Below, piece after piece: positions 2 through 31,002 of a stretch of 31,002 nucleotides of DNA; position 1 is the stretch's first letter; each line of letters begins with the position of its first letter. The DNA lies in IMG/VR virus record IMGVR_UViG_3300028025_002636, positions 1 to 31,002 of that record; one strand, 5' to 3'. Source of the stretch: a virus. The notes under the pieces were generated by a model, which did not search any database, had not been told where the DNA came from, and was given only the letters and a program-made list of their open reading frames with translations. Made by a program: the position numbers and the translations under genes.

Positions 2-130
2 TATAAGTATGTGCTTCAAGCAAGGAGACATAAAAACGGAAAACTACAATACCGAGTTGAGAAAAGTGAGGATAGTTACACTTGTGCAATCCCAACACTT
101 GAGCAATTAGAAAAAGTAACCTTTAAATAA
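2..130 (+). CDS. C-terminal part of small hypothetical protein (left copy)
   Basis: This open frame enters from the left edge of the window and stops at TAA (128-130), encoding the last 42 residues of a small protein. It matches the C-terminal part of the complete 67-residue protein at 29648-29851. The difference at the end is a single C-to-T change at 128 that turns a CAA codon of the linker motif into a stop, so this copy lacks the QQEQ tail found in the right-hand copy. No function is recognised. The 5' end is missing only because the window begins here. Confidence 0.7.
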   Translation, partial: YKYVLQARRHKNGKLQYRVEKSEDSYTCAIPTLEQLEKVTFK

Positions 131-138
131 CAAGAACA

Positions 139-276
139 ATGAAACAAAAAATTAAGTGTATAATTGGATTGCATCAATTTGAATTATTAGAGTATAATGG
201 TTATGTAAAAATTGTTTGGTGTAAACATTGTGAAAAAGTAAAAACTATTAGGCTTAAAAAAAAGAAAAATGACTGA
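139..276 (+). CDS. Small Cys/His protein, possible zinc-binding knuckle (45 aa)
   Basis: A 45-residue basic protein that starts at the ATG inside the linker motif CAAGAACAATG (131-141). It has a WCKHCEK segment in the middle and an upstream cysteine and histidine, so a small metal-binding fold is possible, though a full ligand set is not certain. The C-terminus is lysine-rich. It overlaps the next start by 8 nt, as expected for coupled translation. The gene is absent from the right-hand copy of this region, where the linker is followed directly by the small membrane gene. Function unknown. Confidence 0.6.
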   Translation: MKQKIKCIIGLHQFELLEYNGYVKIVWCKHCEKVKTIRLKKKKND

Positions 277-493
277 AATTATAAAAGTAAAAGAAAGATT
301 ACCTAATGTAGAACATGGTAGTTATTTAGTTTATGCTCCTTTGAATTTTCCTAAAAATAGCAGATGGTTAGTTGCAGAATATTACGATGATGTAAAAGGA
401 TTTTATAGCGAATCATCAGAAAACTTTTTAGAAGATGTTACACATTGGTGCGAATTACCAAAAGAACCTAATATTTCACAACAAGAACAATGA
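269..493 (+). CDS. DUF551-like phage protein (74 aa)
   Basis: A 74-residue protein whose second half ends in VTHWCELPKEP, which matches the usual DUF551 ending (HW-x-x-LP-x-P). The middle has the expected pattern of a short vLVY strand followed by an aromatic strand with a tyrosine pair. DUF551 proteins are common in phage early regions and have no established biochemical role. The last residues are SQQEQ, encoded by the linker repeat, and the TGA overlaps the ATG of the next gene. It lies in the 351-bp block that is missing from the right-hand copy. Confidence 0.65.
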   Translation: MTEIIKVKERLPNVEHGSYLVYAPLNFPKNSRWLVAEYYDDVKGFYSESSENFLEDVTHWCELPKEPNISQQEQ

Positions 494-594
494 AAGAGAA
501 AACAAAAGCAATCATATTTCTGCTATTTGCATTATCCGTTTTTTGCTATGGATTCCTACATTTTGTAGGTTATGTATGGCGAGGAGCTTTCTAA
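490..594 (+). CDS. Small single-pass membrane protein (34 aa, left copy)
   Basis: A 34-residue protein with a short lysine-rich N-terminus (MKEKTK) followed by one hydrophobic stretch of about 20 residues and a WRGAF end. This is the pattern of a single inner-membrane helix. It starts in the linker motif and overlaps the preceding stop (ATGA). A diverged copy with the same length and ending is at 29848-29952, with mostly conservative changes, which supports it as a real gene. Function unknown. Confidence 0.6.
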   Translation: MKEKTKAIIFLLFALSVFCYGFLHFVGYVWRGAF

Positions 595-3412: not shown

Positions 3413-4550
3413 CACCGTAATCTTTGAGAAGAACTATCAAGCTCTCCAGGATAAGGATGTACGGTTTATAATTAATGAAGGAGGAAGTAGGTCATCCAAG
3501 ACATATTCCCTTTGTCAAATGATAATTGTCTACTCTCTCCAAAATAGGGGGAAGGTTACCTCTATTATCCGAAAAACTTTCCCTGCACTCAGAGCAACAG
3601 TCATGCGAGATTTCCTTGAGATCATGAAGATGATGGATTTGTATGATGTCAATGCTCACAACAAGAGTGAACACATCTACACATTCCCGAATGGAAGCAT
3701 CGTTGAATTCTTCAGTGTGGATGACGAGCAAAAGATACGAGGAAGGAAGAGGGACCTCGCTTGGTGCAACGAAGCCAATGAGCTATTCTATGATGACTTC
3801 ACTCAGCTCAACATGAGAACTGAATGGAAGCTCATCTTCGATTACAATCCAAGTGAATCAGCGTCCTGGTTGTATGAGTTACCTAAGGAGGAGAGCATCC
3901 TCATCAAGTCAACGTACCGCGACAATCCATTCCTTCCGGATTCAATCCGTAGGCAAATCGAAGACCTCAAGCGAACGGATGAAGCACTGTATCAAATTTA
4001 CGCACTCGGTGAGAAGGCCATCAGCAAATCAAACATATATTCCAATTGGACCTTTGTGAAGCATCGACCTGCTCGGTTCGTGAACTACGTCTATGGACTT
4101 GACTTCGGGTACAATCACCCGACTGCTCTCATGCGAGTGTATTGGTGCGAGGATGACATCTACATCGAGCCGGTCATCTATGAGAGTTACCTCACCACAA
4201 CCAACCTCATCGAGAAATGTGAGCAACTTGGAGTCGAGAAAAACATCACCATTGTAGCGGATTACGCACGACCGGAGATTATCGCGGAGATGAACAATGC
4301 AGGATACGATGTGCAGAATGCGAACAAGGTAGTGAAGAAGGGAATCGATAACATCAAAACATTCGGAGTATTCTGCGAGGATGAGTCCAGGATAAAAAAG
4401 GAATACGAGAATTACAAATGGAAAAAGATTGGTGACCAAATCACTGATGAGCCGGTGAAGCTGTGGGATGATGCTATGGATGCGGTGAGATATGCCGGTA
4501 CATACATCCGAAAGGAATACTATACTGATGACAGTTACTTCGCCTTCTAA
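3399..4550 (+). CDS. terL: Terminase large subunit, PBSX/XtmB type
   Basis: A 383-residue packaging ATPase-nuclease. The N-terminal ATPase has a Walker A of the GGSRSSKT type (residues 28-35), a Walker B region ending in catalytic E125 (DLAWCNE), and a coupling motif DYNPS (148-152). The RNase H-like nuclease has three acidic positions: D235 (GLDFG), D288 (VADYA) and D361 (WDDAMDAVRYA). Length and motifs fit the Terminase_3/PBSX family. It acts at the portal to pump and cut DNA. The start overlaps the small gene before it by 14 nt. Confidence 0.93.
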   Translation: MEINSTVIFEKNYQALQDKDVRFIINEGGSRSSKTYSLCQMIIVYSLQNRGKVTSIIRKTFPALRATVMRDFLEIMKMMDLYDVNAHNKSEHIYTFPNGSIVEFFSVDDEQKIRGRKRDLAWCNEANELFYDDFTQLNMRTEWKLIFDYNPSESASWLYELPKEESILIKSTYRDNPFLPDSIRRQIEDLKRTDEALYQIYALGEKAISKSNIYSNWTFVKHRPARFVNYVYGLDFGYNHPTALMRVYWCEDDIYIEPVIYESYLTTTNLIEKCEQLGVEKNITIVADYARPEIIAEMNNAGYDVQNANKVVKKGIDNIKTFGVFCEDESRIKKEYENYKWKKIGDQITDEPVKLWDDAMDAVRYAGTYIRKEYYTDDSYFAF

Positions 4551-4560
4551 ACAAAAGAGT

Positions 4561-10514: not shown

Positions 10515-12579
10515 CGAGGTAGCAATTGATTTAACATTAAACGGAGTAGGCTCCCTCAAGTCGCAGTTAAAACAATTAAAGGCTGCGATTGCTGAGGCTA
10601 GTGATCCCGCTCAAATGGATGCACTCGCAAAAAAGGCGGGAGAGGTATCGGATAGGATTAAGGATGCCAATGATGCGGTGAATGTCTTTGCTTCAGGTTC
10701 CAAATTTGAGCAGATATCCTCATCATTTGGTGGCATCAAGGATTCCATCATGTCATTAGATTTCGATGAAGCATCACAAAAGGCTGCCACTTTCCAAAAG
10801 GTAATGGGTGGAATCGGAAAGGCTGATATCAGTGGGGCCATTAAAGGAATCACGAAAACAGTCACTACTCTTGGTGCTACATTCATGAAGCTCGGTGCTC
10901 AAATCTTAATGAATCCAATCTTCCTATTGGTTGCAGTTATCACATTGATTGTGGTGGCGGTAGTTCTATTCATGAAAAAACTTGGAATACTTGACGATGT
11001 ACTCAAGGTGATGATGGCTCCCCTCAATTTACTTATTGCGGGATTTAAGGAATTGACTGATTGGTTAGGGATAACACAATTCGCTGCGGAAGAGAATGCT
11101 GAGAAGATGGCAGCTGCGAACAAGAGAGTCCAGGAATCATCCAAAGAACGTGAGGCGGTAACCAATCAAATGTACTCGAATCAACTTGCATTGCTCAAAG
11201 CTAATGGAGCTGATACCTACAAAACGGAAGTTCAGGCATCCATGTCTAAGAGTTTATTTGCGAGGGAGAGATACAATTCAGCATTAACCGCATACAACGC
11301 TGAGAGAGCTCTTGGCAAAGCAGCGGATGCAGCGAAGTTGAAGGACTTGAAAAAGCAAATTGCAGATGAGAGAGCAATCATTGGAAACGAGAGAACGAAT
11401 CGCCAAGTATTAGCAATCACCGATGCCAAAGCAGATGCGGCAGCAGGAGCAGCAGCAGCGAAAGCAGCAGCGGATAAGAGAAAAGAAAACGCAGCAAATC
11501 GATTAGCAGCGGAGAGAGCCATCATTGATAATCGTATTGCCTTAATTCAAGATGAGAGCAGACGAGAATTTAAAGAACTCAAAACAAAATTCCAAAGGCA
11601 AGAGGAGGATATTAAATTAAATGATAAATTAACTACCTCAGAAAAGAAAATTTTATTAGACCAAAATATCGCCTTAATGGTTCAGGCGGAAGTTGATTTT
11701 CGTGAAAAACAATTAAAAGCTGCTAATGATGCAGCAAAAGAATTAGCGAATAAAGAAAAGGAAATAAATGATAAGAAGAAAGAGGATGCAAATGAAAGAT
11801 TTGTAAGGCTTCAAGAACTTACCTTGTCGGAAAGTGAATTCAAGATATTTCAACTTGAGGAGGAATACGAGAAGGAAATGAAATTGGCAGGTGATAATGC
11901 TGCCTTGAAAAAAGCACTCACCGCTAAACTTGAATTGGATATAACTGATGTCGAGAAAAAAGCAGCAGAGGAGAGGATTGCTTTAAAAGAAGAGGAAGAA
12001 AAAAAGAAACGAGATGCACAACTCAAAACCGCCAATGACGCACTTGACATCGCGGAGGATGGAGTGAAATCAATCCAAGCACTTGGTGATATTGCATTCG
12101 CTAACAAGATGAAGAACGTGGTGAAGGGTGGTAAAGCTGAGGAAGATTTAGCTAAGAAACAATTCAAGTTCAACAAGTCAATGCAATTAGCAGGTGCAGT
12201 GGTGGATGCTGGTAAGGCGGTCACTGCATCATTGGCAGCAGCACCATTAGCAATCGGAGTTGTACCGAATCCTGTTGGTATCGCCAACCTCGTGGCAACC
12301 GCAGCAATGTCCGCAGCTAATATCGCAAAGATAGCAGCAACACAATTCACATCAACAACCGCACCGGCATCACCATCCACACCAACGGGAGCATCGGCAC
12401 CTGAATCATCCGTATCGGCATTCACACCTGGTAACCTATTCGGTCAGAACAACGATCAGAATAATGTTGGAGGTCAAGATACCAACACAAACATCACGGT
12501 TACTGCAGTTGTTTCCGAAACGGAAATAACTGCGACACAAAACAACATATTGAAAATCCAAAAATCAGCACAATTATGA
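10507..12579 (+). CDS. Tail tape measure protein
   Basis: A 690-residue, helix-rich protein. The N-terminal part is amphipathic (LKSQLKQLKAAIAEASDP). A hydrophobic membrane-type segment lies at about residues 134-156 (NPIFLLVAVITLIVVAVVLF). A long Ala/Lys/Glu coiled-coil region spans about residues 195-540, followed by a second hydrophobic, Ala-rich part and a low-complexity Thr/Ser/Pro tail. This is the classic tape measure pattern, setting tail length and helping DNA entry. At 690 residues it predicts a tail of roughly 100 nm by the usual 1.5 angstrom per residue rule. Confidence 0.85.
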   Translation: MSNEVAIDLTLNGVGSLKSQLKQLKAAIAEASDPAQMDALAKKAGEVSDRIKDANDAVNVFASGSKFEQISSSFGGIKDSIMSLDFDEASQKAATFQKVMGGIGKADISGAIKGITKTVTTLGATFMKLGAQILMNPIFLLVAVITLIVVAVVLFMKKLGILDDVLKVMMAPLNLLIAGFKELTDWLGITQFAAEENAEKMAAANKRVQESSKEREAVTNQMYSNQLALLKANGADTYKTEVQASMSKSLFARERYNSALTAYNAERALGKAADAAKLKDLKKQIADERAIIGNERTNRQVLAITDAKADAAAGAAAAKAAADKRKENAANRLAAERAIIDNRIALIQDESRREFKELKTKFQRQEEDIKLNDKLTTSEKKILLDQNIALMVQAEVDFREKQLKAANDAAKELANKEKEINDKKKEDANERFVRLQELTLSESEFKIFQLEEEYEKEMKLAGDNAALKKALTAKLELDITDVEKKAAEERIALKEEEEKKKRDAQLKTANDALDIAEDGVKSIQALGDIAFANKMKNVVKGGKAEEDLAKKQFKFNKSMQLAGAVVDAGKAVTASLAAAPLAIGVVPNPVGIANLVATAAMSAANIAKIAATQFTSTTAPASPSTPTGASAPESSVSAFTPGNLFGQNNDQNNVGGQDTNTNITVTAVVSETEITATQNNILKIQKSAQL

Positions 12580-24202: not shown

Positions 24203-26605
24203 TTGAAAGTATCAGTTTTTAAGAATCTTTTTAGCTCAAAAGATACACCGTATGAGCTCACAATTCATGACATATATCAACGCATCAAAGTTGGGAATCC
24301 TGAATTGATTTCCAAAATAACAAAAATCAGAAAACTCGAAAAGAGTGATCCGGAGCATGACCGATTGAAGTCATCATTGAATGCAATTATGTTCAATGGG
24401 ATATTCTCGGAAAGAAATGACAATTCATTGGTTGAGCATTCGGGATTATGCGTATTGGATTTTGACCAATATCCAACCAAAGTGGCAATGGATGCAGAGA
24501 GAGCTCGATTGATTGATGATAAACACGTCCTGATGGTATTCACCTCTCCAGGTGGAAATGGATTGAAGGCGGTAATCAGTATTCCAAAATCAGATAAGTT
24601 GGAACACAAGAGAAGATTCACCGCATTCGGCAAATACTTCCAATCCGACTATTTTGACGTTAAGAATTCAAATGTATCTCGCGTTTGTTTTGAGAGTTAC
24701 GATCCGAAAATTTACTTCAATGAATTTTGCCAAGTATGGGAGGGAATTGAAACCGATGAGGGATACAATTACACTGAACGTACTCCAACCTGCGTATTGA
24801 ATGATGAGGATAAAATCATTTCATTAATTGAACGATTCGACCATGGATGCAGGTTCGAGGAAGGAAGTCGAAATCACTTTGTTTTTAAATTGGCTTGTGT
24901 CATGTGTGAATATGGCATCGATAAGGCAACCACTGAACAGTATATTTGGACCAAGTATTGTCAAGGCACGAGCTTCAATCATGGTGAGATGGTAACATCC
25001 ATCAATTCAGCATACAAAAAGGCTACATTCTCCACTAAATACTTTGAGGATAAAGATACATTCCATAAGGTCAAGCAAAAACTCAAGTCGGGAATTGCAA
25101 AGGATGATATCAAGAAACAACTTGGTGTGGCTGATGACATTATCGATGATATCAAGGAAGAGATTGCATCCGGTGATGATGTTTTTTGGATGGTTGACTC
25201 AAAGAAAGGAATCCAAATCGAGCCAATTAAGTACAGTGAGTTCCTGGTTAAGAGTGGATTCAACAAATACTATCCGGAGAATGCTGAACGACCTACATTT
25301 GTGAGAGTGAAAGAAAACAAAGTCCGATTGAGTTCCACTGAACAAATCAAAGATTATGTTTTGAACTACCTTCTCGATAAGAATGAGGTCAATGTATGGA
25401 ATTACTGCTCACGATCACCATATCTCTTCAATGAGAATCACCTGAACATGATTGACTCGATTGATATCTTTATGCTCCAGGACACAAAGGACTCATCATT
25501 CATCCCATTCAAGAATGGAGTGGTGAAAGTATCCAAGAATGATGTGAAGGTCATGAGTTATATCGATGTGGATGGATACATTTGGGAGAATCAAATCATT
25601 CAACGTGATTTCACACCAATCAAGGACTCAACAAATGACTTTGAGGATTTCGTTAAAAAGGTATCTGCCAATGATGATGTGAGAATCATGTCACTTGAAA
25701 CGACCTTGGGATATCTCATCCATTCATTCAAAGATAAGACCGACCAAAAGGCAATCATCTTCAATGACCAAGAGATTGATGACAATCCAAATGGAGGAAG
25801 TGGAAAGTCATTGATGTTGGCAGCTCTTGGATACTTCCGAAGAGTCGTGAAGATTGATGGAAAGGCATTCAATCCTGGAAAGAGTGATTTTGTTTATCAG
25901 CGAGTGAACTTGGATTCTCAGATTCTTGCATTCGATGATGTGAAACGGAACTTTGATTTTGAGCAACTGTTCTCAATCATCTCGGAAGGAATCACAGTCA
26001 ATCGAAAAAATAAGGATGAGATATTTATTCCATTTGAGAGGTCACCAAAAATTGTCATCACAACCAACTATGTTATAAGTGGAGCAGGAAGCTCTCATGA
26101 CCGGAGAAGGCATGAGCTTGAATTCTTTCAATACTTCCATTCAAGACGATCACCATTGGATGAGTATGGGAGATTGTTGTTTGACTCATGGGGTGATGAT
26201 GATTGGATTCGCTTTGACAATTACATGATTAAGAATCTTCAATCTTTCCTATCTAATGGATTGACCAAATCAATCTCAATCAATGCAGATGCAAAACGAT
26301 TCATCCAATCCACATCGAAAGATTTCTATGATTGGACTCAAGAGGGGAATCTTCCACTCAATGTGATTCATTACAATAGTGTGGTGATGACTCAATTCAC
26401 ATCTGAATTCAATGGATGGAAAGAATTGGAATCAAGGAAGTTCCTCAAATGGGTGGCAGAGTATGCCAATGTGAAAGGATATGTGATGAGTAAAGGCCGA
26501 AATCACAATGGAAGATACTTTGAATTGATAATACCAGGTGAAACACCGATAAAGAAATCGGATGACATTTGGGATGAGTTAAACGATAAAGCAAAGGAGA
26601 TATGA
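24203..26605 (+). CDS. Primase-helicase (VirE_N/BT4734-like primase plus SF3-type helicase)
   Basis: I prefer the TTG at 24203 (M-KVSVFKNLF), because homologous primases begin with VSVFKN and the alternative GTG at 24152 lies in the hairpin loop. The product is then 800 residues. The N-terminal primase-like part has D86 and D88 (LCVLDFD) and GNGLKAVI. The C-terminal helicase has Walker A GGSGKS (531-536), Walker B ILAFDD (578-579) and KIVITTNY (about 616-623), as in SF3/D5-type helicases. It would prime and unwind phage DNA. The middle probably has a PriCT-like linker. Confidence 0.85.
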   Translation: MKVSVFKNLFSSKDTPYELTIHDIYQRIKVGNPELISKITKIRKLEKSDPEHDRLKSSLNAIMFNGIFSERNDNSLVEHSGLCVLDFDQYPTKVAMDAERARLIDDKHVLMVFTSPGGNGLKAVISIPKSDKLEHKRRFTAFGKYFQSDYFDVKNSNVSRVCFESYDPKIYFNEFCQVWEGIETDEGYNYTERTPTCVLNDEDKIISLIERFDHGCRFEEGSRNHFVFKLACVMCEYGIDKATTEQYIWTKYCQGTSFNHGEMVTSINSAYKKATFSTKYFEDKDTFHKVKQKLKSGIAKDDIKKQLGVADDIIDDIKEEIASGDDVFWMVDSKKGIQIEPIKYSEFLVKSGFNKYYPENAERPTFVRVKENKVRLSSTEQIKDYVLNYLLDKNEVNVWNYCSRSPYLFNENHLNMIDSIDIFMLQDTKDSSFIPFKNGVVKVSKNDVKVMSYIDVDGYIWENQIIQRDFTPIKDSTNDFEDFVKKVSANDDVRIMSLETTLGYLIHSFKDKTDQKAIIFNDQEIDDNPNGGSGKSLMLAALGYFRRVVKIDGKAFNPGKSDFVYQRVNLDSQILAFDDVKRNFDFEQLFSIISEGITVNRKNKDEIFIPFERSPKIVITTNYVISGAGSSHDRRRHELEFFQYFHSRRSPLDEYGRLLFDSWGDDDWIRFDNYMIKNLQSFLSNGLTKSISINADAKRFIQSTSKDFYDWTQEGNLPLNVIHYNSVVMTQFTSEFNGWKELESRKFLKWVAEYANVKGYVMSKGRNHNGRYFELIIPGETPIKKSDDIWDELNDKAKEI

Positions 26606-27538: not shown

Positions 27539-28060
27539 ATGGAAAAGAACACAAAAACAGTCGCAACGCTGTACCAAAAGTTGCACACTGCCAAGTCGCA
27601 GATTGGAAAGGTTGCAAAGAATGCAACGAATCCACATTTCAAAAAGTCGTATGCCGACATCAATGCACTGCTCACCGCAGTCGAGCCGATTTTGTTGGAG
27701 AATGGATTGATTCTACTCCAACCAATAGTTGGAAATGATGTGGTGACGAGAATCATTGACATCGATTCAGGTGAAATGGTTGAGTCATTCATGACCTTGC
27801 CGATTATCACTGATCCACAAAAGGTATTGAGTGCGGTGACTTACTTCCGAAGAGGAACATTGCAATCATTGTTGTCACTTCAAGCGGTAGATGATGATGG
27901 AAAGGCAGCATCGATTGCAGTCGCACCGGTTAAACCTGCGTTGGACAATGCAAGATTCGAATCCGCAGTGGCATCCATTCAAGCAGGAAAGTATACAAAA
28001 GAGCAATTGATTGAGAAATGGTCATTGACTGAGGTACAACTTAAAGCTCTTGAATTATGA
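27539..28060 (+). CDS. erf: ERF-family single-strand annealing protein
   Basis: A 173-residue protein with the ERF core: KNATNPHFKKSYADINALLTAVEPILLENGLILLQPI (residues 27-63), followed by a beta region (VVTRIIDIDSGEMVESFMTLPI) and AVTYFRRGTLQSLLSLQAVDDDGKAA. These match the essential recombination function family, which binds and anneals single-stranded DNA. The exonuclease-type gene next to it would supply the single strands. Its stop overlaps the following ATG by 4 nt. Confidence 0.85.
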   Translation: MEKNTKTVATLYQKLHTAKSQIGKVAKNATNPHFKKSYADINALLTAVEPILLENGLILLQPIVGNDVVTRIIDIDSGEMVESFMTLPIITDPQKVLSAVTYFRRGTLQSLLSLQAVDDDGKAASIAVAPVKPALDNARFESAVASIQAGKYTKEQLIEKWSLTEVQLKALEL

Positions 28061-28674
28061 AGTGGCATCCATCCTCCATCGGCAAGTTGATGACTAATGG
28101 CCGAGGCAAGAATGAAATGGGACAAACTGCAAAGAGCTATATCAAGCAAGTTGCGAAGGAAAATTTCTACGGTTACCGAAGTGAAATCAACAATAAATAT
28201 ATCCAAAAGGGATTGATGCAAGAGCAGGACTCAATTGACCTACTCAACACTGTGAGATTCGAGGGATATATCAAGAACACTGTGCGAATGGTTGACGAGC
28301 TGATGACCGGTGAATGTGACATCATCACTGATGCTTCAATCATCGACATCAAAACATCCTGGTCATTGGATACCTTTCCGGTAATGGCAGAGGATGGATA
28401 CGATACAATCTATGAGTGGCAGTTGAGAGCTTACATGAGATTGTACAACCGACCTAAGGCAGAATTAATCTATTGCATGGTGACAACATCCAACGAACTA
28501 CTAAACGAGTGGGAGAACTTAGATATACACCGAGTTGACCATATCGCACCGGAGAAGAGAATCACCGTACTTTCATTTGATCGTGATGAAGCGAAGGAGC
28601 AGGAGATGGTTGAGAGATTAGAGTTATGTACTGAGTATTATAATGACTATTATAAATTATTGGAAGCGAAATGA
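28057..28674 (+). CDS. PD-(D/E)XK exonuclease (YqaJ/RecB-like)
   Basis: A 205-residue nuclease. The likely active-site residues are E56 (QEQDSI), D88 (GECDII), D97 and K99 (IDIKTSW), and Q122 in YEWQLRAYM, the RecB-type pattern of phage recombination exonucleases. Paired with ERF it would form a two-part recombination system, like lambda Exo and Beta, that resects double-strand ends. It is shorter than some YqaJ proteins but has all the core motifs. Confidence 0.8.
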   Translation: MKWHPSSIGKLMTNGRGKNEMGQTAKSYIKQVAKENFYGYRSEINNKYIQKGLMQEQDSIDLLNTVRFEGYIKNTVRMVDELMTGECDIITDASIIDIKTSWSLDTFPVMAEDGYDTIYEWQLRAYMRLYNRPKAELIYCMVTTSNELLNEWENLDIHRVDHIAPEKRITVLSFDRDEAKEQEMVERLELCTEYYNDYYKLLEAK

Positions 28675-28955
28675 AAATAACAATCGAACAATACGAGCAC
28701 ACAGTGACACACCAGGTACCTCACAATGATGTGGACCTTGATGAAGTAGTGAGAATGGTCGAAGGACTTTTGAGAGCAATTGGATACCATTTCACTGGTA
28801 ACCTTGAGATAGTAGATGAGTGGAGTGATAACGAAGAATCATTTAGAATAGTTGATGAACCTAATGAACCAAAAATAAGAGTTGGAGATGCGACAATCAC
28901 TACCTATGATAAATTCGGAGTAAAACACGAAACCTTTAAACAACAAGAACAATGA
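28671..28955 (+). CDS. Hypothetical protein, first of the QQEQ cassette array (94 aa)
   Basis: A 94-residue acidic protein with DVDLDEVVRMVEGLLRAIGYHFTGNLEIVDEW in the middle, a pattern seen in small Bacteroidota phage proteins of unknown role. The last residues are KQQEQ, encoded by the linker repeat, which starts the next gene (ATGA). It lies directly after the exonuclease gene. Confidence 0.6.
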   Translation: MKITIEQYEHTVTHQVPHNDVDLDEVVRMVEGLLRAIGYHFTGNLEIVDEWSDNEESFRIVDEPNEPKIRVGDATITTYDKFGVKHETFKQQEQ

Positions 28956-29128
28956 AAACATATCCATTTAATGAAGGTCAGACTTATTACTTTATAAGTG
29001 ACCTAGAACATATAATTGAAGCCGTATGGGATTATATAGCAGAAACATTATACAACCCTAATAGAATGCTTTTTAAAACATATAAAGAAGCACTTAACTA
29101 TTTATTAATTAAAGACCAAGAACAATGA
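28952..29128 (+). CDS. Small phage protein in the QQEQ array (58 aa)
   Basis: A 58-residue protein with the pattern PFNEGQTYYFISDLEHIIEAVWD ... LYNPNRMLFKTYKEALNYL, a common small phage domain of unknown function in which a strand pair is followed by VWD and FKTYKEA. Starts at the linker ATG and ends with DQEQ from the next linker copy. This is a good match to a recurring family, so the gene is probably real. Confidence 0.6.
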   Translation: MKTYPFNEGQTYYFISDLEHIIEAVWDYIAETLYNPNRMLFKTYKEALNYLLIKDQEQ

Positions 29129-29220
29129 AAAGAGAATTTGTAAAAGGTATTTTACTTGGAGTAATAGTATCCGCAATAATTCAATGTATACTAACATTTG
29201 TAATACTAATCAACATTTAA
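29125..29220 (+). CDS. Tiny membrane protein in the QQEQ array (31 aa)
   Basis: A 31-residue frame with a basic start (MKREFVKG) and one hydrophobic helix of about 22 residues. It begins at a linker ATG. The stop TAA lies at the start of the next linker copy (TTTAAACAACAAG), so the same repeat is read in a different frame here. Evidence is composition and position only. Confidence 0.5.
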   Translation: MKREFVKGILLGVIVSAIIQCILTFVILINI

Positions 29221-29232
29221 ACAACAAGAACA

Positions 29233-29397
29233 ATGAAAGAGATATTAGAATTTATACTTCAAGTAATAGGATTTACTATTATGTGGCATGCGGTAAACTA
29301 TAAAAGAGAAACAATAATAAAATCTTTTTCCACTCTTTGGTTTGCAATATTTGGTATGATGATTATTGCAGGAATTTTAATAAAAACAAATATTTAA
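29233..29397 (+). CDS. Small two-helix membrane protein in the QQEQ array (54 aa)
   Basis: A 54-residue protein with two hydrophobic segments (residues about 4-20 and 34-51) and a basic loop between (NYKRETIIK). It starts at a linker ATG at 29233 and ends just before a degenerate linker copy. It may be a membrane protein with both ends on one side. No family recognised. Confidence 0.5.
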   Translation: MKEILEFILQVIGFTIMWHAVNYKRETIIKSFSTLWFAIFGMMIIAGILIKTNI

Positions 29398-29408
29398 ATA
29401 AGAACAAA

Positions 29409-29651
29409 ATGAAAACAGAAAAACAATTAACAGCAGTAGAATGGTTACATTCAGAATACGAGAGAATACTTGGTAGTGTATTGGTAACTCCTCAACAAAT
29501 TATTGAAATGAGTGATGCTTTAGAAAATGGTAAAGAAATAGAGAAGGAGCAACGCCAAGAAGATACTAACTATGGTTATTCACAAGGATGGGATGATGGT
29601 AATCAGAACGAAGAACCAATGAGACCCGAACTAAAACAACAAGAACAATGA
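29409..29651 (+). CDS. Hypothetical 80-aa protein in the QQEQ array
   Basis: I use the ATG at 29409 (MKTEKQLTAVEWLHSEYERIL), because the longer in-frame start at 29337 lies within the preceding membrane gene and has no good sequence. It is a helical, acidic protein with EWLHSEYERI near the start and an EKEQRQEDTNYGYSQGWDDG region. It ends KQQEQ from the next linker copy. EWL-type short proteins are frequent in phage ORFan arrays. Function unknown. Confidence 0.6.
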   Translation: MKTEKQLTAVEWLHSEYERILGSVLVTPQQIIEMSDALENGKEIEKEQRQEDTNYGYSQGWDDGNQNEEPMRPELKQQEQ

Positions 29652-29851
29652 AACTATTTAGCAGAAATTGGGGACAATGGACAGACCTATCAACTACGGG
29701 GTATATAGGGTATAAGTATGTGCTTCAAGCAAGGAGACATAAAAACGGAAAACTACAATACCGAGTTGAGAAAAGTGAGGATAGTTACACTTGTGCAATC
29801 CCAACACTTGAGCAATTAGAAAAAGTAACCTTTAAACAACAAGAACAATGA
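29648..29851 (+). CDS. Hypothetical 67-aa protein in the QQEQ array (complete copy)
   Basis: A 67-residue protein starting MKLFSRNWGQWTDLSTTGYIGYKYVLQARRHKNG, ending VTFKQQEQ. The C-terminal part matches the partial protein at the left edge of the window (2-130) except for the missing tail there. Beta-rich N-terminal pattern with a basic stretch. No family recognised. Confidence 0.65.
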   Translation: MKLFSRNWGQWTDLSTTGYIGYKYVLQARRHKNGKLQYRVEKSEDSYTCAIPTLEQLEKVTFKQQEQ

Positions 29852-29952
29852 AAGAGAAAACAAAAGCAATTATATTTCTGCTATTCGTAATATCCGTTTT
29901 CTGCTACGGATTCCTGCACTTTGTAGGTTATCTATGGCGCGGAGCTTTCTAA
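29848..29952 (+). CDS. Small single-pass membrane protein (34 aa, right copy)
   Basis: The diverged counterpart of the gene at 490-594, of identical length, with the same basic start MKEKTKAIIFLLF and WRGAF end. It begins at a linker ATG. Several third-position changes with an almost unchanged protein suggest that the peptide is under selection. Confidence 0.6.
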   Translation: MKEKTKAIIFLLFVISVFCYGFLHFVGYLWRGAF

Positions 29953-29989
29953 GTAGTAACTTACCAAATAGTAACATAACAAATCAAAT

Positions 29990-30292
29990 ATGGAATTACA
30001 AGTAAAGGGCATAATCAAGATGATTGTGCCAATCAGACAAGTCAGTGACAAGTTCTCAGTGAGAATGTTCGTCCTAACCGTAGCCAATGGAGAGTATCCT
30101 CAGGACATCTCATTCCAATTAGCTCAAGACAAGTGCAAGATGTTGGATAACTACAATTCAGGAGATGAAATCACAGTTAAATTCAATCTGAGAGGACGTG
30201 AATACAATGGGAAGTATTATAATACTTTGGATGTGTGGAATATTAACTCAATGCCGGTAGTTGATGAGAGCTTTGACGATTCACCTTTCTGA
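29990..30292 (+). CDS. SSB-like OB-fold protein, DUF3127-type (right copy)
   Basis: The counterpart of 635-937, with 89 of 100 residues identical. The changes cluster at residues 6-18 and 54-60, while the central block (SDKFSVRMFVLTVANGEYPQ) and the whole C-terminal 40 residues, including the acidic DDSPF tip, are unchanged. This clustering fits loop variation in an OB fold, or a short recombination patch from a related phage. Confidence 0.7.
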   Translation: MELQVKGIIKMIVPIRQVSDKFSVRMFVLTVANGEYPQDISFQLAQDKCKMLDNYNSGDEITVKFNLRGREYNGKYYNTLDVWNINSMPVVDESFDDSPF

Positions 30293-30473
30293 TGGGGAAA
30301 CCATTCGTGACTTCATCGATAGAGAGGTGAGGTCACGGGTATCCAAGAGATACAAATTAGCACATATCGCTGAAGATATGGGAATCACTTACCTTCAGTT
30401 GTGGCGATTCTTGAAAGGTCATTCAGTGAATGAGGAATTCTATATCAAATTTTTTAAGTATTATGAGAGATAG
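30261..30473 (+). CDS. Small Cro/CI-type HTH protein (right copy)
   Basis: The counterpart of 906-1118, differing at four of 70 residues (position 11, the two residues after LKG, and one acidic swap). The proposed recognition helix is identical, so both copies should bind the same DNA site. It overlaps the OB-fold gene by 32 nt, as in the left copy. Confidence 0.65.
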   Translation: MMRALTIHLSDGETIRDFIDREVRSRVSKRYKLAHIAEDMGITYLQLWRFLKGHSVNEEFYIKFFKYYER

Positions 30474-30657
30474 ATACTTCATTGCCTATGTTGGCACCAA
30501 GAATGAGAATCCCCACATGATCATCAATCGATTTCAAGATGTGTTCAGTGGTATGAACGTCAATTATTGCATCGTTCTGACTATGGAAGATGATGAGGTA
30601 TATATCGAGGAAGTGGATGCAGCTGCATTCAATGATGTTAAATGTCAAATGAATTGA
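30463..30657 (+). CDS. Hypothetical 64-aa protein (right copy)
   Basis: The counterpart of 1108-1302, with five residue changes. The preferred start ATG at 30463 is conserved; the upstream in-frame ATG at 30430 leads into residues that differ between the copies, which supports the shorter form. No family recognised. Confidence 0.6.
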   Translation: MRDRYFIAYVGTKNENPHMIINRFQDVFSGMNVNYCIVLTMEDDEVYIEEVDAAAFNDVKCQMN

Positions 30658-30658
30658 T

Positions 30659-31000
30659 ATGAAAAGAACAAACAAAGAGCTCCAGGACTTATATGACTTT
30701 ATGGAGATAATGATGAATGAGATTAATTCAAACACCAAACGAATCTTTGCTGAAGAGCTGAGAACATTTGGTGCAATGCTTTCGGAGGTAGAGGTCATCC
30801 CCGAGGAGAAACCAATTCACGTTGATCCAATTCTAATCAAGGTATATAGCAAGTATCAGGAGCGTTCCGAGATGGGAGTGAAAAAATATGGTACAACATT
30901 GGAAAATAATTCGTTACCTTTGATGGATTGGTTGAATCATCTCCAGGAGGAATTGATGGATGCAACCTTGTATATTGAGAAATTAAAGCAAGAGATATGA
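30659..31000 (+). CDS. MazG-like all-alpha NTP pyrophosphohydrolase candidate (right copy)
   Basis: The counterpart of 1304-1645 with 14 changes in 113 residues. The final 38 residues, with the KYG and EELMDATLYIEKL motifs, are identical, while the central linker (residues 42-74) holds most of the changes. This is consistent with a catalytic C-terminal half under constraint. Confidence 0.5.
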   Translation: MKRTNKELQDLYDFMEIMMNEINSNTKRIFAEELRTFGAMLSEVEVIPEEKPIHVDPILIKVYSKYQERSEMGVKKYGTTLENNSLPLMDWLNHLQEELMDATLYIEKLKQEI

Positions 31001-31002
31001 GT
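30997..31002 (+). CDS. First two codons of the CxxC membrane protein (cut by window edge)
   Basis: ATGAGT overlaps the stop of the MazG-like gene exactly as at 1642 in the left copy, so this is the start of the right copy of that gene. Only six bases are present. Confidence 0.5.

Follow-up and report, generated by a model that had tools for sequence, protein, structure and literature searches.

An old question about the mosaic genomes of phages is whether they arise by exchange at short conserved boundary sequences or by blind illegitimate recombination, and clear examples of such boundaries have rarely been found. It is raised again by a locus in the viral record IMGVR_UViG_3300028025_002636 of IMG/VR (31,002 nucleotides, analyzed over its whole length and referred to here as the window), in which seven very small genes (28671–29952) lie between genes for an Erf annealase and an exonuclease (27539–28674) and the gene for a single-strand DNA-binding protein (SSB, 29990–30292), joined by near-identical copies of a short sequence, termed the linker, that ends one gene and starts the one after it. 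The question is directly testable here in that the joint recurs hundreds of times, the unit that is swapped is a single gene, and a second type of joint provides a natural control. It is proposed, and considered likely, that the array functions as a dock at which small genes can be interchanged, with the joint being at once a start/stop signal and a short stretch of homology for exchange.

Results

Linker sequence and anatomy

The exact sequence CAAGAACAATGA occurs seven times in the 31,002-base record, always on the plus strand and at a gene start and all in one array, with five copies inside the span that was singled out at the outset, two at the opposite end of the record, and none on the minus strand (Table 1). 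A first-pass annotation made from the letters alone had described tiny genes joined by a repeated stop/start linker, and this description holds, the seven copies comparing with a mean of 0.002 (maximum 1) in 2,000 dinucleotide shuffles of the 1,950 bases of array DNA. A degenerate copy, TTTAAATAAGAACAAAATGA, precedes the gene that starts at 29409. The core of this linker, designated type A, extends beyond the version first noted, to approximately TAAACAACAAGAACAATGAAA, and positions −15 to +4 from the ATG are highly conserved, with the qualification that sites were picked by near-match to the core and the conservation of the core itself is therefore biased.

The ATG of the linker is the start codon of the next gene, while the upstream gene is closed in one of two ways, either by an overlapping TGA, which gives the tail KQQEQ, or by the linker's own TAA, located twelve bases before the ATG (115 and 43, respectively, of the 209 linker-to-linker units from all loci), and the linker supplies stops in two of the three frames. 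Unrelated proteins had been said to end in QQEQ or DQEQ, and this is correct for five genes of the window, three with KQQEQ and one each with KDQEQ and SQQEQ, but not for the 31- and 54-residue products, which have no tail and stop instead at a TAA that forms the linker's upstream edge (Table 1). The C-terminal tails match because the joint encodes them and not because the genes are kin. Their codons show no synonymous variation (CAA to CAG 240:0, GAA to GAG 84:0, versus 266:33 and 522:144 in gene bodies), and as the sites were called with up to two mismatches, the zeros are not imposed by definition; selection for A in the start context may contribute to them. RNA folding of the linker revealed no structure and no inverted repeat, and neither a terminator nor a sigma-70-like promoter was found above the level of shuffles, in a scan that did not include Bacteroidota promoters.

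Cassettes shared between phages

The content between linkers is highly variable, the 230 adjacent gene pairs falling into 170 distinct ordered combinations. Different contigs were connected by 1,747 homologous segments, in which homology ended within the linkers of both contigs 566 times, where 17.9 were expected, and 57 segments were linker-bounded on both sides; this cross-contig test supersedes an initial count of breakpoints at all ends, in which alignments of the flanks diluted the signal. Otherwise unrelated contigs have single cassettes in common, with ends exactly at linkers, at 97–100% identity. For cassettes at least 95% identical in contigs with otherwise little homology, upstream identity is 0.36–0.43 and stays at background until 15–20 bases before the ATG, reaches 0.98 at −15, is 0.96–0.99 across the linker and start, and drops to ∼0.45 past the next linker and start. 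The clearest case is that of contigs G013 (66,294 bp) and G014 (66,935 bp), which have in common one 248-bp cassette that is 100% identical and, by blastn and tblastx of the whole contigs, nothing else. The same cassette is present in G012 and G015 (98.9–99.6%) and in G011 (96.6–98.4%), each of the five contigs coming from a different metagenome record; G011 and G014 have additional distant homology, and the matches between G015 and G014 are few and short. Purifying selection acts on the cassette genes, with a pooled ratio of nonsynonymous to synonymous polymorphism (pN/pS) of 0.22.

Two versions of the locus at the record ends

The ends of the record overlap, such that 1–151 matches 29710–29860 (98%) and 478–1647 matches 29836–31002 (90%). 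The record is most simply read as a circular or permuted genome of ∼29.4 kb whose assembly ran past the start and mixed two strain versions, and relatives of comparable size exist (e.g., 29,366 bp). The 5′ version has two genes more, contained in 351 bp between the linkers at 131 and 482. When exactly this unit is removed, the alignment of the two versions (1,299 columns, 90.7% identity) is ungapped at the joint, up to which they are identical at 141 of 142 bases. The ends differ by an insertion or deletion from linker to linker that arose naturally. In addition, a C-to-T change in a linker of the 5′ version truncates the preceding protein to TFK, and hence the tail seems dispensable.

Two linker types

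Several relatives without the type A linker contain instead a type B linker (CCTTTAAATCAGAATAAGATGA) with the tail TFKSE. This second type (TTTAAATCAGAATAAGATGA, tail FKSE) is widespread (e.g., L128, L132, L139, and L140), with at least 120 stretches in viral contigs. Neighboring linkers are mostly alike (AA 191, BB 118, mixed 29), and the same gene families are found with either type and adopt its tail, QQEQ or FKSE, so the type is a property of the genome and not of the gene. The commonest cassette, a family of small proteins starting MKTAVEWL, is present in 116 copies in 93 contigs, 72 with type A and 44 with type B. Three or more changes of type occur on the tree built from Erf and exonuclease for the window's lineage, so the type does not mark a lineage permanently. 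Clusters of near-identical cassettes from unrelated contigs are single-type in 25 of 27 cases, versus 14.3 expected when types are shuffled among contigs (p < 0.001). Of the indications available, this restriction is the best one that exchange is governed by a match between linkers and not only by good start signals.

Distribution of the linkers

A search with SSB, which is unbiased towards linkers, recovered ∼45 close relatives, with Erf proteins that are mostly 92–100% identical and exonuclease-SSB intervals that range from ∼125 to 1,800 bp. All of their exact linkers (51 of 51) are inside that interval, or 29.5 kb out of 347 kb, and none is reversed. A generic genome-wide start signal was rejected, as the close relatives have no linker beyond the array and no core gene uses one. 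The type A pattern was found in at least 120 stretches in viral contigs, compared with three for the reversed pattern, and 257 Gb of cellular genomes gave 12 single, chance-like matches to a type A pattern. The concern of the first-pass annotation that A-rich composition might account for the frequency of the linker was likewise rejected by the shuffles, the reversed-pattern control, and the cellular genomes, the frequency being far above chance.

Within a genome the linkers are mostly confined to one strand. An exception is the 73-kb contig G063 (the contig of L096), where clusters are on both strands (4067–4556 and 63605–70743). The 173-kb contig L001 has 19 linkers in five clusters. Positions 11300–12466 of L001 contain a tandem duplication of a two-gene block in which a single different gene separates the copies, and the cuts are all at linkers. 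The array was not found in isolated phages, among which the nearest Erf is that of the Nonlabens phages P12024L/S (53%), and a search of the available literature found no report of the exact linker or of start repeats in Flavobacterium phages.

Gene content of the array

The features of the locus are given in Table 1. The genes of the array, which had been called ORFans, have no confident family match and no relatives in isolated phages, as that term implies, but they do have relatives in other environmental phages. Some families, among them that of the 34-residue probable membrane peptide, are invariably last, like a fixed end of the array. Elsewhere in the window, 24389–26605 encodes a 738-residue protein with a BT4734-like N-terminal domain and a weak PriCT-1 primase domain, probably a replication primase.

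Table 1. Genes and linkers of the array, its flanks, and the 5′ end of the record (window coordinates; aa, amino acids).
Feature	Position	Strand	Remarks
Erf-family single-strand annealing protein, 173 aa	27539–28060	+	PHROG 2324, E 7.5e-33; Pfam ERF, E 3.7e-16
Phage exonuclease, 205 aa	28057–28674	+	PHROG 5715, E 3.4e-58; conserved left flank of array
Left anchor gene, 94 aa, KQQEQ end	28671–28955	+	Adjoins exonuclease in most relatives; weak PHROG 935 (unknown function)
Type A linker	28937–28955	+	Core CAAGAACAATGA at 28944
Cassette gene, 58 aa, KDQEQ end	28952–29128	+	
Type A linker	29110–29128	+	Core at 29117
Cassette gene, 31 aa	29125–29220	+	Hydrophobic
Type A linker	29218–29236	+	Core at 29225; TAA is stop of preceding gene
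Cassette gene, 54 aa	29233–29397	+	Hydrophobic; 83% identical relative in L142
Degenerate linker	29394–29412	+	Near-copy with AAGAACAAAATGA, from sequence
Cassette gene, 80 aa, KQQEQ end	29409–29651	+	
Type A linker	29633–29651	+	Core at 29640
Cassette gene, 67 aa, KQQEQ end	29648–29851	+	76–94% identical relatives at linkers in unrelated contigs L001, L041, L048, L064
Type A linker	29833–29851	+	Core at 29840
Terminal array gene, 34 aa	29848–29952	+	Probable membrane peptide
SSB, 100 aa	29990–30292	+	PHROG 4932, E 9e-21; conserved right flank
Type A linker TAAATAACAAGAACAATGA	124–142	+	Core at 131; record 5′ end
Extra cassette gene, 45 aa	139–276	+	Missing from 3′ copy of locus
Extra cassette gene, 74 aa, SQQEQ end	269–493	+	Missing from 3′ copy of locus; weak PHROG 924 (unknown function)
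Type A linker	475–493	+	Core at 482; record 5′ end
Second version of 34-aa terminal gene	490–594	+	
351-bp linker-to-linker unit	131–481	+	In 5′ end, absent from 3′ end

Discussion

A joint with two proposed uses

The array would appear to sit in the early or recombination region of a Bacteroidota phage, where the joint may have two uses. In expression, it would terminate the upstream frame and open the next gene in an A-rich Bacteroidota start context. Translation starts in F. johnsoniae are determined by A at 0, −3, −6, −12, and −13 (PMC6847099), a rule with which the linker agrees at each position and without a Shine-Dalgarno sequence. Given stops in two frames and a start of its own, an insert that runs from joint to joint would be translated and its neighbors would stay intact. 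In exchange, the joint would provide ∼20 bp of homology at each end of a cassette. Being the same from gene to gene and from phage to phage, it could serve in this way, allowing cassettes to be gained, lost, duplicated, and swapped during co-infection. We infer that this occurs by single-strand annealing or a similar short-homology recombination in co-infected cells, the agent probably being the phage Erf or RecT annealase with the exonuclease, or host recombination. Erf was found in 30 of 50 linker contigs and RecT in another one; in 26 of those with Erf, the linkers lie downstream of it on the same strand at a distance of 1–3 kb, a co-location that is only suggestive because many phages may have inherited the gene order. 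With at least two linker types, cassettes would move mostly within one type. More generally, it is somewhat probable that many unrelated Bacteroidota phages (∼29 to 174 kb) form an exchange network in which a common start/stop joint is kept as a plug standard, such that any gene flanked by it moves by annealing recombination and different joints define separate compatibility groups.

This is in essence what the first-pass annotation had suggested, namely that the linker doubles as a short homology site for exchanging small-gene cassettes. The linker-cut cassettes in unrelated contigs and the clean 351-bp difference between the record ends support it, and the pattern points to homology as the cause of exchange, although the linker is not solely a homology site as it is also a good Bacteroidota translation-start region. 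Comparison of related phages bore out the expectation of conserved linkers with variable genes between them, and the idea would have failed had gene order been the same everywhere, which is not so. It was also to fail if close relatives had no linkers; linkers do recur among them, but some relatives have no type A linker, their arrays being short or empty or carrying the second type. This last observation is one of several that weigh against the proposal. Most contigs were collected for containing a linker, which inflates the apparent conservation. Neither Erf nor RecT is detectable in 19 of the 50 linker contigs, and ∼20 bp is short for RecA-dependent recombination by the host. Sharp ends at linkers would also be expected if only insertions that spare their neighbors survive. 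Within the window's own lineage, where the pairs are too few, the preference for the same type (8 of 10 pairs, p = 0.17) is not significant, and the linker type could mark a host or gene pool instead of homology.

Alternative explanations

The linker might be an expression signal only, associated with starts for strong or coordinated translation and perhaps read by a phage factor, with cassettes moving by illegitimate recombination and selection retaining those inserted between signals. Its A residues at −3, −6, −12, and −13 fit those of F. johnsoniae, its RNA is unstructured, it is always positioned directly at starts, and the start-associated sequences known from cluster K mycobacteriophages are similar to it. 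This is unlikely to be the whole explanation, however, as it does not account for the inclusion of the next linker in a shared cassette at its right end, for linker-encoded C-terminal tails that switch with linker type, or for the lack of synonymous variation in tail codons. Moreover, near-identical cassettes keep to one type even though both types satisfy the start rules, and in the relatives the linker is used by none of the core genes.

The precise, repeated, and directional joints and the single-gene cassettes might instead suggest a dedicated recombinase that recognizes the linker, as the integrase of integrons recognizes attC. Such site-specific recombination is very improbable, since neither a tyrosine (PF00589) nor a serine recombinase was found in 16 linker genomes, the linker is without structure or inverted repeats, and two linker sequences that are unrelated fill the same role. 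It is also hardly credible that assemblers fused unrelated phages at short repeats. All of the data are metagenome contigs and the ends of the window do join two strain versions of one locus, but the same cassette with independent flanks is present in contigs from five different metagenome records, the pattern extends to hundreds of contigs, and the cassette genes are under purifying selection (pN/pS 0.22). A dock for small genes, with the joint as both signal and homology, is the preferred reading. The linker also offers a sequence tag by which the mobile small genes of uncultured Bacteroidota phages can be found, a pool that at a guess consists of early genes for host takeover or counter-defense.

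Comparison with known systems

Integrons contain gene cassettes with attC sites that are moved by an integrase of the tyrosine recombinase family. The array resembles them in that its cassettes are single genes, are interchangeable, face one way, and share a common joint, but it has no integrase (PF00589 is absent from the 16 genomes) and no structured site, and its linker is a start and a stop. The early promoter and stem-loop elements (PeSLs) of T4-like phages were reportedly described by Arbiol in 2010 and Comeau in 2014. They combine the two features in their name and are said to shuffle small genes among closely related phages (PMC4503421). The linker is likewise a repeated regulatory intergenic element that bounds shuffled small genes, but it has no fold or promoter enrichment over shuffles, overlaps both coding ends, and connects unrelated phages. 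The SAS/ESAS (start-associated sequences) of cluster K mycobacteriophages have a Shine-Dalgarno core with the consensus GGGATAGGAGCCC and were proposed to function in translation initiation (Pope et al., 2011, PMC3203893). As with the linker, these are short asymmetric repeats in many copies and mostly one orientation, directly at the starts of small non-structural genes of different families, that may include the upstream stop and are absent from hosts. In contrast, the linker, TAAACAACAAGAACAATGA, is A-rich without a Shine-Dalgarno sequence and does not match the SAS consensus; it bounds cassettes shared by unrelated phages, a role as exchange boundary that the available parts of Pope et al. 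(2011) do not report for SAS, and beyond SAS it encodes C-terminal tails and has at least two exchange groups. In lambdoid phages, boundary (linker) sequences were proposed at mosaic joints (discussed in PMC3029335), and the idea is the same, namely that short conserved intermodule sequences would be sites of homologous exchange, with the same joint flanked by different modules, but here one identical sequence is present at nearly every joint of the array and across unrelated phages. Because it does not have the defining sequence of SAS or the defining structure of PeSLs, the linker is classified apart from both, as a new variant of a general kind, the repeated regulatory joint that bounds exchangeable small genes.
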